DNA of 64,000 nucleotides from Fidelibacterota bacterium (GCA_016784605.1 JADHUI010000010.1:1-64000), one strand, 5' to 3'. Counted from the stretch's first letter, positions 682 through 6,139 are shown. The notes: generated from the letters alone by a model not told the origin. Numbers and translations are program-made.

Positions 682-693
682 CTTGGATTATTC
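682..693 (+). repeat. 12-bp direct repeat, left copy, flanking the inserted block
   Basis: CTTGGATTATTC occurs here, just after the stop of the truncated gene remnant, and again at 3917-3928 just before the 3' end of the intact copA. The two copies bracket the block that carries a second version of the locus. It may be a target-site duplication or a recombination scar. Confidence 0.5.
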
Positions 694-828
694 GCCACAA
701 AATTCACAAAGCTCACAAAAGACTAATACTAAAAAGAAGTTAGAAGAAATTCTTTAGTATTATTTTTATAATTATGTTATTCTTCATTTTTTTCTTTTCC
801 TTCGTGAAACTTCGTGTTCTTCGTGGCT
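690..828. repeat. Palindromic intergenic element with terminator-like inner hairpin
   Basis: The left arm (about 694-720, GCCACAAAATTCACAAAGC) is an imperfect inverted copy of the right arm (about 797-828, which reads GAAACTTCGTGTTCTTCG). Inside lies a perfect 10-bp stem, TAATACTAAA at 724-733 with TTTAGTATTA at 753-762, followed by a run of T. The CACGAAG-type arms suggest a dispersed intergenic repeat. The inner hairpin could terminate transcription on the plus strand. No gene is visible between 676 and 877. Confidence 0.5.
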
Positions 829-877
829 AATGAATTAATCAGGTTAGAGCATTCGAAGCACTTCATTTTATTTACTA

Positions 878-1336
878 TTACCAATAGTTTTTCATCAATT
901 CACTTGTCCATTTAGGTTGTTTTATTTCATCTTTTGGTAAGTATTCTTCAAATACTGGTTTTATATCAAGAATGGGTGTTCCGTCAATTGCGTCAAGATT
1001 TGAAACAATCAGTTTTCGCCCATCTTTTCTTATCAAATTGACAATAGTTAGTCCGATATGATTTGGTCTGTCTTTTTTCCGTTGAGCAAAAATGCCAACT
1101 TTTGGCCAATTTGTATTTTCTCTTGGGTGTTCGCTTCCAGTTATCGTCTTATTTGCTTTATCGAGATAGTATATAATTTCTAAATGGGAAAAGGTTTCAA
1201 TGCCGTCAAAACTTTCAATTGGTAAATTGTCTGCAAGTTCGATTTCAGAAATAATTTCACTCCAATTGTCATCTGAATTTTCTTTGCGATTGTTTTTCAC
1301 AAAGGCGATGGGTTTTAATGTTATTTCTTCATTCAT
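878..1336 (-). CDS. TrmO/TsaA-like (UPF0066) family protein
   Basis: This 152-residue protein is a single TrmO-type domain. The family includes the SAM-dependent methylase that modifies N6-threonylcarbamoyladenosine at tRNA position 37. The signature is visible: HPREN, then VGIFAQRKKDRPNHIGLT and later LDAIDGTPILDIKP. These match the family's FAxRxxxRPNxIGL and DGTPxLDIKPY patterns. E. coli TrmO has an extra C-terminal domain that is absent here, so this is the short form. The gene sits directly downstream of a broken tetR copy inside an inserted block, so it may be accessory rather than the housekeeping enzyme. The domain is clear; the exact substrate is not. Confidence 0.85.
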   Translation of the reverse strand: MNEEITLKPIAFVKNNRKENSDDNWSEIISEIELADNLPIESFDGIETFSHLEIIYYLDKANKTITGSEHPRENTNWPKVGIFAQRKKDRPNHIGLTIVNLIRKDGRKLIVSNLDAIDGTPILDIKPVFEEYLPKDEIKQPKWTSELMKNYW

Positions 1337-1378
1337 AATTTAATTCCTTAACTTTTCAAGAGTTGCTGGATTGTAATT

Positions 1379-1533
1379 AACTTTAAAGATATCTCCTTTA
1401 CTTCTGAAATATTCGTAAACGGTCCCTTTGCCAATGCCTGCTTCTTTGGCGATGTCGGCAATTTTTCCTTTTTCAAGTCCGTCTCGGGCAAAACCCTAAT
1501 GGCGGCATTAATAATTAATTCATGTTTATTCAT
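1379..1533 (-). pseudogene. Broken second copy of the tetR gene start
   Basis: The stretch begins with ATG and MNKHELIINAAIRV, parallel to the intact regulator. A one-base deletion then throws the frame off near 1490. The following bases in the other frame still encode GLEKGKIADIAKEAGIGKG and YEYFRSKGDIFK. Similarity to the intact gene ends near 1379, so the ligand-binding half is missing. A 64-bp stretch (1425-1488) is identical to 338-401, while flanking bases are clearly diverged. This suggests gene conversion or mosaic recombination between the copies. Confidence 0.85.
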
Positions 1534-1540
1534 TATAAAA

Positions 1541-1558
1541 TGACTGACTGGTCGGTCA
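1541..1558. promoter_or_regulatory. Palindromic TetR-type operator, copy 2
   Basis: TGACTGACTGGTCGGTCA is a nearly perfect 18-bp palindrome, better preserved than the copy at 470-487. It lies 7 bp upstream of the broken tetR start and 83 bp before the intact exported-protein gene. It could still be bound in trans by the intact TetR protein. Confidence 0.7.
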
Positions 1559-1584
1559 TAAATTATTTACTTAAGATTTTAATT

Positions 1585-1594
1585 TCAAGTGTAA
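1585..1594 (+). repeat. 10-bp direct repeat matching 1951-1960
   Basis: TCAAGTGTAA occurs here and at 1951-1960. These are the two positions between which the deletion seen in the remnant at 514-675 must have occurred. It is microhomology, probably not a functional site. Confidence 0.5.
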
Positions 1595-1641
1595 CTTTTA
1601 AAGTTTCAACCATCTAATTAATAAAACACTGAGGTTAGTCC

Positions 1642-2115
1642 ATGAAAAAATTCTTCATTTTATTTAGTTTTATTTCGTCCTTTATTATAGGACAAGATGT
1701 TCAATTCCAAGTGACACACCCTCGAGAATTACCAACGTTACCAGATTCAATGGAAATAGAAGAATTCCAAATAATAGATAGGCATTTAGGCTGGAAAGAA
1801 TTATTTACTTCCGTCATTTATCCAGGATATAATCATGAATACATACTGGAAGATTCTACAGCAGATAAGATTAAAACAATTAGATTAATTGCAAGTGGAC
1901 TCGTTGTGGCTGCGTGGGCTGATTTCACATTTTTTGGTAAGCATGAACTATCAAGTGTAAGTTTTCAGGAAATGGTTCAAGAAAGTCCAAGAGATGCGAC
2001 AGCATTTTCCTTGGGTGTAGCTGTTAATATTTTTTATACAATATATGATTGGGGTAAGGCGCAACTATTGCTTAAAGAAAAACAAAGCCAAATATATTAT
2101 AAATATAAAAAATGA
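1642..2115 (+). CDS. Small exported protein of unknown function
   Basis: This 157-residue protein starts with a clear signal peptide (MKKFFILFSFISSFIIGQ) with likely cleavage near residue 18. The mature part has a WKELFTSVIYPGYNHEYI segment and a hydrophobic stretch around residues 75-92 (IRLIASGLVVAAWADF). The C-terminus is short and lysine-rich. I do not recognise the family. The signal peptide and the single later hydrophobic segment suggest an envelope protein. The gene lies divergent from a broken tetR copy across an operator, so TetR control is plausible. A deleted copy lies at 514-675. Its stop is 9 bp from the tail of a copA relic. Confidence 0.75.
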   Translation: MKKFFILFSFISSFIIGQDVQFQVTHPRELPTLPDSMEIEEFQIIDRHLGWKELFTSVIYPGYNHEYILEDSTADKIKTIRLIASGLVVAAWADFTFFGKHELSSVSFQEMVQESPRDATAFSLGVAVNIFYTIYDWGKAQLLLKEKQSQIYYKYKK

Positions 2116-2124
2116 ATTAGAGCA

Positions 2125-2205
2125 TCACAATTTTACCGATTTCAATCTATTTGAATTCCCTACCACATTGATGCTGGAAAGCGCCATGGCAATTTCTGCA
2201 ACTAC
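2125..2205 (-). pseudogene. Relic of the 3' end of a second copA gene
   Basis: Read on the minus strand, this encodes VVAEIAMALSSINVVGNS and then the tail NRLKSVKL plus stop. The C-terminus of the intact CopA at 3944 is almost the same: VMAEVAMALSSINVVGNS, then the same tail. DNA identity is about 88% by eye, with differences mostly at third codon positions. Similarity stops near 2205, so only about 26 codons survive. It lies tail-to-tail with the exported-protein gene, which shows that an original tetR, exported protein, copA arrangement existed in two diverged versions. Confidence 0.85.
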
Positions 2206-2262
2206 AGACTTTTTGCCTATCTTTTATAATTTAGAATGTAACTCAATTATGGCGAGTTCTTT

Positions 2263-2736
2263 CTATTTATATTTTTTATCAAGGATATTTTTGTATTCAT
2301 CAGGAAGTTCAATATCTAAATCTTTAAAATCTTCTCCGTCATTAATATTTCTCCCTTCAGGTGCAAATTTAATATCATAAAGCAAAACTGCATCTTGAAT
2401 TGTATTTATTATGTAATCCCACTGATAATCTGTAATATTTAGAAAAGATGTATAATTCAAAGCTCCATATTGTTGATACCTTTTTAGCTTTCCATATTCG
2501 CGAACTGTTGATTTTGCATACTTAAATCCAATTGTTTTCAATTTTTGTTTTTTCACTGGTAACATAGAATATGGAAATATTGGCATAGGAATGAATGCCT
2601 TAAAATCTTCATAAAGTTTGTTCATATAAAGACCCATCCAATATGCTGCAGTTTCAAGCTGTTTCTTACTATTAATATTATTGGAATTGTTAGTTAATTC
2701 ATATGCAATTTGTCAAATGCTTTTATCTCCAATCAT
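2263..2736 (-). pseudogene. Unknown protein gene interrupted by an in-frame TGA at codon 8
   Basis: The natural start is the ATG at 2734-2736, preceded by an AGGAAAA ribosome binding site. It reads MIGDKSI, then TGA (2713-2715), then QIAYELTNNSNNINSKK without further stops to 2263. The next in-frame ATG is at 2637 and would give a 124-residue product lacking the first 33 codons. The protein is rich in Lys, Tyr and Asn and has no signal peptide or membrane segment. I do not recognise it. A nonsense mutation is the simplest reading; readthrough cannot be excluded. It shares the inserted block with two orphan membrane protein genes. Confidence 0.6.
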
Positions 2737-2760
2737 TGTTTTTCCTATTTGAAATACATA

Positions 2761-3396
2761 TTAAATAGCCTTTCTTCTTTTACTAATCTGTAACCATCCC
2801 CAGATAAGAAAACCAATTCCGATACCAAAAAATATTGTGCTCAATTCTTCATTGACTATTGTAACCCAAAATGATAGAAAAATTGATAGAAGACCAATTA
2901 GTATATTAATATTAGAATATTTTAAATAAATGGCAATTATAAATGAAAGAATTCCCGACCAAAAAAGTAAAAACCTTAATTGAAAAATAATTAAATTGTA
3001 GTTTGCATCTATTTCTAAAGATACCAAGACTAATAGAGTTCCCGTTAATAATAATTTTTCGAATAGGAACATTTCTTTCCAATTCTTCGATTTATTTGAA
3101 GGATAGTTTTTTGAAAAAGGGAAAAGCCCACTTTTTACCCATATTTGAGCAGGCTTTTTTATAGCTAAGTGTTGTAAAATGGTTATTAATAGAAGGTAAA
3201 ACAATGGTGATTCCCACGCTCTATTATATCCCATATATACTGCAATATAGTATGTCATAAAGAATGAAAGAACGGGAAGAATAAGTCTATAATAAGTTTT
3301 TCTTGATTGTTGCCCATCCCACGATCCAATTCTTTTAAAGCCCTTATAGCAGATAATTAACAATATTGCTACAGCAAAACTTTCACCTTGTCTCAT
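2761..3396 (-). CDS. Orphan multi-pass membrane protein
   Basis: This 211-residue protein is very hydrophobic, with about five or six membrane segments. They fall around residues 8-18, 37-55, 65-75, 112-125, 133-157 and 162-203. A charged loop with LFPFSKNYPSNKSKNW lies near 91-106. The ATG start at 3394-3396 follows a weak ribosome binding site. I do not recognise the family. It has the high AT content of its neighbours in the inserted block and no link to the surrounding housekeeping genes. Confidence 0.6.
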   Translation of the reverse strand: MRQGESFAVAILLIICYKGFKRIGSWDGQQSRKTYYRLILPVLSFFMTYYIAVYMGYNRAWESPLFYLLLITILQHLAIKKPAQIWVKSGLFPFSKNYPSNKSKNWKEMFLFEKLLLTGTLLVLVSLEIDANYNLIIFQLRFLLFWSGILSFIIAIYLKYSNINILIGLLSIFLSFWVTIVNEELSTIFFGIGIGFLIWGWLQISKRRKAI

Positions 3397-3492
3397 AGTA
3401 ATTCTTTACTTTATTAGAAATTTCGAATCCAATAATAGGTAAATAGGGAATGTTGCATGAATAGGACAATTTTGTAATAATCATAAATTTAT

Positions 3493-3858
3493 CTATAGAT
3501 ATTTTCTTCCTTTTGTCGTTAAATGCGTATGTATAAATTCATTAAAATCTTTTTGCATATCAAATTTTGTTGACTTAGAAAAAATTGTTTTTAATAAAAA
3601 AATACCTACACCTATTTTAACTTCAATTCGATTGATAAATTCAGGGGAAAAATACCAAATTATAAAAATGACTAATAATCCTATTATTGGAGAAATAAGA
3701 TAATAAAAGATACATATTGGTTTTACATAACCTTTATTAACCAGTTTTAATGCTTTTGGAATTCCATAAAAAATTGGCAGGAGAATATTAGCTGGCCAAA
3801 CAAGCCCAAAGATAAATGCAATACTACTTAATAAAATATTACCGATTAAACTAAACAT
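3493..3858 (-). CDS. Orphan small membrane protein
   Basis: This 121-residue protein has membrane segments at about 5-32 and 48-69, and a third weaker one near 83-90. A polar C-terminal tail follows (KDFNEFIHTHLTTKGRKYL). It may act with the membrane protein at 2761-3396, 96 bp downstream on the same strand. I do not recognise the family. It ends the orphan part of the inserted block before the second 12-bp repeat. Confidence 0.55.
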   Translation of the reverse strand: MFSLIGNILLSSIAFIFGLVWPANILLPIFYGIPKALKLVNKGYVKPICIFYYLISPIIGLLVIFIIWYFSPEFINRIEVKIGVGIFLLKTIFSKSTKFDMQKDFNEFIHTHLTTKGRKYL

Positions 3859-3916
3859 ACTCTTTAATTAAGTTACAAATACTTTTTTTTAGAATCTAAT
3901 ATTTTAATATTTCAAT

Positions 3917-3928
3917 CTTGGATTATTC
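3917..3928 (+). repeat. 12-bp direct repeat, right copy, flanking the inserted block
   Basis: CTTGGATTATTC here matches 682-693 exactly. It lies 15 bp from the stop codon of the intact copA. If 694-3916 and one repeat copy are removed, the exported-protein remnant becomes the direct tail-to-tail neighbour of copA. That is the same order as in the second copy at 2115-2125. Confidence 0.5.
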
Positions 3929-3943
3929 AGAAAGCATTAATAG

Positions 3944-6139
3944 TCACAATTTCACTGATTTCAGTCTATTCGAATTTCCAACCACATTGATGCTGGAAAG
4001 GGCCATGGCCACTTCTGCCATGACTGGATGAAGCACACCAGCAAAAGCTAAAGGAATGGCTACAATATTATAAATAAAGGCCCAAAATAAATTTTGTTTA
4101 ATTTTACTAAAGGTGGCATTGGCCAATCGGGTGGCTCGAAGGACTGCTTTTAAATCACCGTGCGCTAAAACAATTTCACCCGTTTCCATCGCAATATCCG
4201 TCCCACTTCCCATAGCAATTCCTACATCAGCTTGTGCAATGGCAGGGGCATCATTAATCCCGTCGCCCACCATGGCAACAACAAATCCTTGATCTTGATA
4301 GGATGAAACAATATTCGCTTTTTCATCGGGCAAAACTTCTGCATGAACGTGATCTATTTGGAGCTTGTTAGAAAGAGATTCAGCGATTTCTATTTTGTCC
4401 CCCGTGAGCAAAACACATTTATATCCGGCTGAGTTGAGAGAAACAATTGTATCGGCAGAGTCAGAACGAATGGCATCTTCGATTTCAAAAATGGCTATAC
4501 AGTTTCCATCCAAAGAAAGAAAAACGGGTGTTCCTGATAAAGCTATATCCGTCTTGGAACTTGTGAAAGATGCGCTTCCCACTTTTAAGGTTGCGCTGCC
4601 ATATTTACCTGAAATGCCTTTCCCCGGAACGACTTCAATATCCGAAACAGGGTCCAAACTCATTTCTTTTTCTTCTGCAAGATTTATAATTGCTTTTGCC
4701 AGTGGATGTGTGGATTCTTTTTCCAAGGATGCGGCCATTCGGATCAAATCATTTTCCATAATTCCGGAAATTTGATGCACTTTTTTAACGACGGGTTTTC
4801 CTTGGGTGAGTGTGCCTGTTTTATCAAATAATATCATATTCACTTCATTGAGTCTTTGGATTGCGGCGCCATCTCGAATGAGTATTCCATTCTCCGCTCC
4901 TAATCCAGTTCCCACCATGAGAGCTGTGGGCGTAGCAAGACCCAAAGCACACGGACAGGCAATCACTAAGACGGCAATCGTGGCGTAAATCGCCATTCCT
5001 ATGGGTGTTAAATCCAAATTGATCCAAGGAAGAAACTCAGAAAATAACTGGGCCAATTGTTTCATTTTGGAAGGAAAAATTGTCCAAACGAAAAAGGTAG
5101 AGCCAGCCAAGAGCAAAACCACGGGAACAAAAATGGCTACCACTTTATCAGCAAAAACTTGGATAGGAACTTTGGTCGTTTGAGCATTTTCAACCATTTG
5201 GATCACTTTGGAAAGAAATGTTTCTGAACCGATTTTTGTTACTTCTACTTTAAGTGTGCTATCAGAGCAAATAGTTCCGCCAATCACATCGTCATCGATA
5301 TTTTTTGTAACCGGGACTGATTCTCCCGTTACGATTGATTCATCAATGGTCGCGCGACCTTCTCTAATAATCCCATCAGTGGGAATAGCTTCACCTGCAC
5401 GAACAATCATGATTTGTCCAATAACAAGACTTCGCACATCAATTTGAACTTCATTATTATCCATATCCAAAACGGTAGCTTGTTTCGCACCCAAACTCAT
5501 AAGCTTTTGGATCGCTTCTGATGATCGTCCACGTGCTTTGGTTTCAATATATCTTCCCGTTAAATGAAAGGACATAATCATGCCAGCAACGCCTGCAAAA
5601 GAGTGGATTTCGATATAGTGTGTAATAATACCTGTGGAAAGTGCTGCTAAGGAACCAAGGGCAATGAGCACATCCATATTGGGTGACAAATGAATGGCAG
5701 ACTTCCACGCACTTGCGAGTGTTTCTCGTCCGGGGATAAAGCAAACGAGCGCACTTAAAATAAAAATGCTTAATTCCATTCCATCCATAGACGGCCAAGC
5801 AAATCCCGTTAACATATGAATCCCCATCCACATCATTGCAGGGACGGTTAGCATCCAAGCCCATTTCATATTTTGGAAGGATTCATCTACTTTTTCGTCC
5901 GTTTTTTCTTGGAGATTAATCGGCGTTTCAGACTCAAGTAACTCAGCGCCATATCCGGTTTTATCGATGGCAGATAATAGTTCTGTCGAGCCAACTTCTC
6001 CCGAAATAGTGGCCTTTTCTAAAGTAAGGTTCACCACAGCTTCTTCCACGCCATCGACTTTTCGTAAGGCGCTTTCTACAGAGCCAACGCAGCCTGCGCA
6101 ATGCATTCCTGTTATTTTTAATTCAATAGTATTGTTCAT
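3944..6139 (-). CDS. copA: Copper-transporting P1B-type ATPase
   Basis: This 731-residue inner-membrane pump couples ATP hydrolysis to export of Cu(+) from the cytoplasm. One N-terminal heavy-metal domain carries GMHCAGC (Cys14, Cys17). The membrane CPC metal site is at residues 395-397 (IACPCALGLATPTALMVG), and the phosphorylated Asp439 lies in DKTGTLTQG. TGES, the HP motif (STHPLAKAI) and GDGINDAPA are all present. The length is normal for a single-HMA CopA. Its start overlaps the MOSC gene stop by 4 bp (ATGA), making it the last gene of the pab operon. A relic of a second copA end lies at 2125-2205. Cu(+) specificity is inferred from CPC and family likeness. Confidence 0.95.
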   Translation of the reverse strand: MNNTIELKITGMHCAGCVGSVESALRKVDGVEEAVVNLTLEKATISGEVGSTELLSAIDKTGYGAELLESETPINLQEKTDEKVDESFQNMKWAWMLTVPAMMWMGIHMLTGFAWPSMDGMELSIFILSALVCFIPGRETLASAWKSAIHLSPNMDVLIALGSLAALSTGIITHYIEIHSFAGVAGMIMSFHLTGRYIETKARGRSSEAIQKLMSLGAKQATVLDMDNNEVQIDVRSLVIGQIMIVRAGEAIPTDGIIREGRATIDESIVTGESVPVTKNIDDDVIGGTICSDSTLKVEVTKIGSETFLSKVIQMVENAQTTKVPIQVFADKVVAIFVPVVLLLAGSTFFVWTIFPSKMKQLAQLFSEFLPWINLDLTPIGMAIYATIAVLVIACPCALGLATPTALMVGTGLGAENGILIRDGAAIQRLNEVNMILFDKTGTLTQGKPVVKKVHQISGIMENDLIRMAASLEKESTHPLAKAIINLAEEKEMSLDPVSDIEVVPGKGISGKYGSATLKVGSASFTSSKTDIALSGTPVFLSLDGNCIAIFEIEDAIRSDSADTIVSLNSAGYKCVLLTGDKIEIAESLSNKLQIDHVHAEVLPDEKANIVSSYQDQGFVVAMVGDGINDAPAIAQADVGIAMGSGTDIAMETGEIVLAHGDLKAVLRATRLANATFSKIKQNLFWAFIYNIVAIPLAFAGVLHPVMAEVAMALSSINVVGNSNRLKSVKL

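Follow-up and report, generated by a model that had tools for sequence, protein, structure and literature searches.

The region between a tetR gene and the copper-type P-ATPase gene copA at the end of a Fidelibacterota contig is best explained as a hypervariable junction between convergent genes, a product of ordinary genome plasticity. It contains three partial gene duplications, and a repeat that had been taken for the edge of an inserted block is the end of a MITE, a non-autonomous DNA transposon. We see about an even chance that the present arrangement arose from two additive imports at the 3' ends of neighbouring genes, followed by a deletion in the first copy of the exported-protein gene (exp1) and the insertion of the MITE.

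The window, by which we mean the whole 64-kb stretch of DNA analysed, starts at base 1 of contig C22, a contig end. The source genome (G000) is a 2.17-Mb assembly in 46 contigs that is rated 89% complete and 0.01% contaminated. DNA searches were made against 130 genomes of the order, and orphan 2 was compared with 245 genomes of the phylum.

Organisation of the locus

Between tetR copy 1 and the intact copA there is a broken exported-protein gene, a TrmO-like gene, a truncated tetR, an intact exported-protein gene, a copA tail and three orphans. The features are as follows.

1-453, minus: tetR copy 1, N-terminal 151 aa, full-type, running off the contig start (PF00440 TetR_N, 2e-17)
456-513, no strand: divergent promoter of tetR and the exported gene, copy 1, with a TetR-type palindrome; G033 has a homologous promoter
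514-528, plus: deletion fusion point in exported-gene copy 1, TCAAGTGTGAGTTTT; parent repeats at 1584-1598 and 1951-1965 in the intact copy
529-676, plus: 3' remnant of exported-gene copy 1 (528-681 is 151/154 identical to 1965-2120)
678-681, plus: left 4-bp target duplication, TTAG
682-843, plus: complete MITE, 162 bp, an imperfect palindrome with terminal repeats CTTGGATTATTCGCCAC / GTGGCTAATGAATTAATCAGG (model R1, 114 bits)
844-847, plus: right 4-bp target duplication, TTAG
848-852, plus: exported-gene 3' flank past the MITE, AGCAT, identical to 2121-2125
878-1336, minus: TrmO-like gene, cargo 1 (TIGR00104, 94.5 bits against a cut-off of 93.25; PF01980, 2e-26)
1381-1533, minus: tetR copy 2 (tetR2), truncated and frameshifted
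1534-1641, plus: promoter and leader of exported-gene copy 2, compared with the copy 1 and G033 promoters
1642-2115, plus: exported-gene copy 2 (exp2), intact, 157 aa, with 82% amino acid identity to G018 and 56% to G033
2125-2207, minus: displaced copA 3' tail, 83 bp
2263-2637, minus: orphan 1, cargo 2
2761-3396, minus: orphan 2, cargo 2, hydrophobic
3493-3858, minus: orphan 3, cargo 2
3917-3928, plus: right copy of CTTGGATTATTC, with a weak match to the G001 flank
3944-6139, minus: copA, intact copper-type P-ATPase (TIGR01511, 519 bits, above cut-off)

The tetR start with its promoter (294-528 and 1381-1599), the exported-gene tail (501-681 and 1938-2120) and the copA tail (3944-4026 and 2125-2207) are each present twice in direct orientation, and these pairs are the sole strong direct duplications in the window, where one further, weak pair was found at 68%. 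Single-copy cargo lies between direct duplications of an anchor, with the exported-gene tails standing around TrmO and tetR2 and the copA tails around the orphans. The original prediction had distinguished an outer set, with a good tetR start, a broken exported gene and an intact copA, from an inner set with a damaged tetR, an intact exported gene and the tail of copA only; both sets are confirmed, and the TrmO-like gene and the three orphans were found where they had been placed.

No second TrmO was found in the source genome. None of the three orphans could be placed in a family; orphan 1 is without a match in Pfam, PHROG or NCBIfam, and for orphan 2 the 245 phylum genomes yielded a single weak match (E 5e-4). 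The GC content of the orphan cargo is 26.6%, compared with 36.2 +/- 1.7% for 1.7-kb pieces of the window (minimum 32.5%), which supports a foreign origin. A viral source was rejected, as the exported gene, TrmO, orphan 1 and orphan 2 have no match in viral contigs, PHROG gave no matches and orphan 1 has none in phages; a plasmid source was likewise rejected, orphan 2 being without a match in plasmids. No structured RNA or tRNA that could have served as a target was found.

What broke exported-gene copy 1 is the loss of ~367 bp between the 15-bp near-repeats TCAAGTGTAACTTTT and TCAAGTGTAAGTTTT, which the original prediction did not mention. Beyond the MITE this copy reads TTAG-AGCAT, the same as the flank of copy 2 (2117-2125), and then enters the flank of TrmO; after the same bases copy 2 passes into the copA tail. 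Since the two flanks match through AGCAT the first join, to TrmO, lies at ~852, at the position of the copA stop. The left edge that had been drawn at 694 is therefore not borne out, the exported-gene flank running on past the MITE. At 2115/2125 the ends of the exported gene and of copA are separated by 9-10 bp, evidently their native arrangement.

The MITE and the 12-bp repeat

It had been proposed that a block of 3.2 kb is bracketed by 12-bp repeats. Within the 2.17-Mb assembly CTTGGATTATTC is indeed present at both of these places, 682-693 and 3917-3928, and at no other, but these are not block edges, as the left copy is the first 12 nt of the element at 682-843. Being the MITE's own terminus the left 12-mer is not duplicated target DNA, and a 12-bp target-site duplication around the block is ruled out by the MITE ends and the TTAG duplication. 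The right 12-mer begins exactly at the element's first base and may be what is left of another MITE end; alternatively it may belong to the native copA flank and resemble the element by accident; its region is similar to a stretch of the copA flank of G001, a similarity that was equalled in 12/500 shuffles.

The window from ~679 to 846 is a dispersed repeat within the order. Aligned copies and a sequence model define a family of ~161 bp with fixed ends, model positions 1/2-161 being recovered repeatedly, and with imperfect terminal inverted repeats (CYTGGATTATTCGCCAC / GTGGCTRATGAATTAATCAGG in the aligned copies). The model has matches at E <= 1e-4 in 30/130 genomes, and the copies examined span 150-230 bp. 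The element aligns with its own reverse strand at 32 bits, and no ORF of at least 50 aa is found inside 682-843. An exact 4-bp target duplication is present at 31 of the 42 copies whose flanks were read, and when the comparison is shifted by 1 to 3 bases the number falls to 0 or 1 of 42 (1 at offset -1). Most of the duplications are YTAR, and the sequences seen are chiefly TTAG, TTAA, CTAG, CTAA and CTAT. We conclude that 682-843 is a MITE, of a new family but a familiar type; among the papers searched none dealt with MITEs in Marinimicrobia.

In genome G043 ten 176-bp copies lie at different sites (L160-L168, L189) and differ by one base at most. Almost all of them have a perfect target duplication, and the family looks to have been recently active there. 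The copies of G103 (L109 and others, 198-229 bp) are lengthened by the small internal palindromes CGCTAGCG and CCCGTTCCGCAGGCGGGG, which look like further tiny repeats that had entered the MITE. The family has the short non-coding form, terminal inverted repeats, 4-bp YTAR duplication, multiple copies and near-identical copies per genome of IS5-type MITEs, and it is from the target motif, which for IS5 is YTAR (PMC10359306), that an IS5-type relationship may be inferred. It differs from them in that a transposase-bearing partner was not recognised, the search covering ~20 further single termini, up to 3 kb and the two longest ORFs of each.

Divergence between the copies

Compared segment by segment, the identity between copies is heterogeneous: the tetR start has 129/155, the promoter (456-527) 60/72, the copA tail 70/83 and the exported tail 151/154. 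The view that the second set is a diverged homologue and not a fresh copy is supported by the 83-84% of tetR, promoter and copA tail. The exported tail differs from promoter and copA tail with a Fisher p of about 1e-4 or less. Between genera, however, the tail of the exported gene also changes more slowly than the rest of the gene (13/151 against 73/323 differences), so that the contrast is suggestive of a mixed history and not proof of one.

Within the tetR pair there is a 64-bp perfect run whilst the remaining sequence is diverged, 83% overall, and for a perfect run of 66 bp the simulated p is 1.5e-4. Three relatives differ at many positions within this stretch, and a perfect run that is variable in relatives points to recent exchange. 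The tetR2 stretch at 1450-1572 is 93.5% identical over 124 bp to G112, a genome of another family, compared with about 67-79% in the tetR region between other lineages, which gives tetR2 a foreign look. The matching stretch of G112 (L105:1-124) itself sits at a contig end, and its similarity is far above that usual at such a distance.

The locus in relatives

In G001, of the same genus, tetR stands 83 bp from copA with no exported gene and no cargo, the block being absent. Beyond tetR in G001 come an outer-membrane gene and an ABC-transporter operon, and this outer-membrane gene was not found in the source genome. The divergent tetR arrangement is present in G033 and G009.

In G018, of a cousin genus, 3.2 kb with other genes separate an intact exported gene from a second copy of its 3' tail, 76 bp long and 100% identical. 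The closest named relative with the exported gene is the 'Candidatus Neomarinimicrobiota' MAG SI053_bin69, whose locus is that of G018. Named by eye, the G018 cargo consists of two acetyltransferase-like genes, an ABM-like gene and a propeller gene; the same kind of footprint with other cargo indicates that elsewhere, too, the 3' end of the exported gene has been the site of such an additive event. Two attC-like spacers (52 bp, 81%) precede the propeller and acetyltransferase-like genes of G018, at L016:960-1011 and 2129-2180, and this cargo looks like gene cassettes.

True integron integrases (TIGR02249, 432-434 bits) are found in G001 and G002, both of the same genus as the source genome, at contig edges (L075:5481-6434 and L076:1-954). 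The integrase of G001, and also that of G039, adjoins a carbohydrate-kinase-like gene, and near the integrase of G002 there is a REP-associated (Y1-type) transposase-like gene (L076:1192-1815), recognised by eye from its MPNHVH motif.

Origin of the locus

The native order would have been tetR, exported gene, copA, into which DNA of related lineages would have entered twice, anchored each time in a gene 3' end. Most simply, a circularised fragment would have joined the chromosome by one crossover at each import. The first fragment, with TrmO, the exported gene and part of its tetR, would have recombined within the exported gene to give tetR1-exp1-TrmO-truncated tetR2-exp2; the second, with the copA 3' end and the three AT-rich orphans, would have recombined in the copA tail, leaving the 83-bp displaced tail beside exp2. 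Later the redundant exp1 would have lost ~367 bp between its 15-bp repeats, and the MITE would have inserted at TTAG just behind it. The abrupt ends of tetR2 and of the displaced copA tail would, in this model, be the places where a fragment ended.

From the end product we infer that fragments circularised and crossed over once, how many events took place and in what order, and what the donors were. No intermediate stage or donor arrangement was found in the 130 genomes of the order, and no circle junction is recognisable in the sequence. The copA tails, with a longest identical run of 20 bp, would seem poor for a crossover unless they diverged afterwards. The original prediction had seen here the capture of a strain variant by an unknown mechanism. 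Foreign DNA is indeed involved, but the order of the parts fits two additive events better than a single block, and there is no need for an unknown mechanism, as single crossovers of circularised fragments leave such footprints.

That one segment (~853-3916) came from a donor with tetR and copA remnants, by illegitimate recombination between exp1 and copA, is possible but doubtful. Its removal leaves tetR1-exp1-copA tail-to-tail, every inner homologous piece is diverged from its outer counterpart, and cargo and tetR2 have a foreign look; such an import would however require an unseen donor with two prior truncations and an insertion point falling exactly on the copA stop, there is no target duplication once the MITE is recognised, and the exported tail is 98% identical where the other parts are 83-84%, although this tail is the slower-changing part of its gene. 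It is unlikely that a TrmO...tetR-exported unit was duplicated in tandem in place, with later deletions, conversion and a separate insertion of the orphans. The common 3' flank of exp1 and exp2 would agree with this, and the 64-bp perfect tetR run, given the divergence around it, suggests conversion, but the genome is without a second TrmO, relatives carry the ABC-transporter operon and not TrmO beyond tetR, and the copA tail and orphans would be left unexplained. We regard it as very improbable that two strains or species were joined by the assembler near the contig end, where the MITE, as a family repeat, could have served as a bridge: it is flanked by matching TTAG and then by AGCAT continuing the exported gene's flank, the other joins have no common stretch long enough to mislead an assembler, and contamination is rated as negligible.

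The least probable of these explanations is that a site-specific recombinase placed a gene cassette or a small integrative element at the 3' ends of genes. The layout of gene, cargo and displaced tail is like that of islands integrating in 3' ends, and the integron integrases of the same genus and the attC-like spacers of G018 would be in keeping with it. The original prediction that no integrase is visible at the locus is correct, however, and the source genome has no TIGR02249 match over the cut-off, though at 89% completeness this absence is not proof; the tail lengths are unequal (76, 83 and at least 154 bp), they have no common core and belong to two unrelated genes, and no attC was seen between the genes by inspection. 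Integron cassettes were rejected, as the source genome has no integrase over the cut-off and no attC was recognised by inspection at the locus. It is also highly improbable that Marinimicrobia have a recurrent, recombinase-driven addition of cargo behind protein-gene 3' ends with displaced tails of 75-160 bp. If true, it would be a protein-gene counterpart of integration at tRNA ends, with the exported-gene and copA sites of the source genome and the exported-gene site of G018 as instances.

Relation to known systems and significance

In Escherichia coli, where homology-facilitated insertions were sought, circularised fragments that integrate by single crossover are reported to leave behind partial duplications of 109-950 bp (PMC3240628). 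Fragment integration and homology-facilitated illegitimate recombination of this kind share with our locus the foreign cargo, the partial duplication of the anchor and the lack of an integrase; here, in contrast, the events are deduced from the end product alone, the anchors are diverged and there has been later decay. For the T6SS of Vibrio cholerae it has been proposed that incoming modules are anchored in a conserved gene and push the older genes further downstream (PMC5361080), and these arrays of orphans are likewise without an integrase, whereas at the present locus no effector, immunity or Rhs genes were recognised and it is an exported-protein gene and copA that serve as anchors. Integron gene-cassette arrays resemble the locus in their row of small single genes, and integrases occur in relatives, but neither integrase nor attC was recognised here.

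A bracketing repeat can mislead: a single alignment to relatives showed that what had been taken for a target duplication is the end of a transposon. For an uncultured marine phylum, the locus would preserve a record of recombination with relatives in successive steps, and the MITE family provides a usable marker of transposition in Marinimicrobia.
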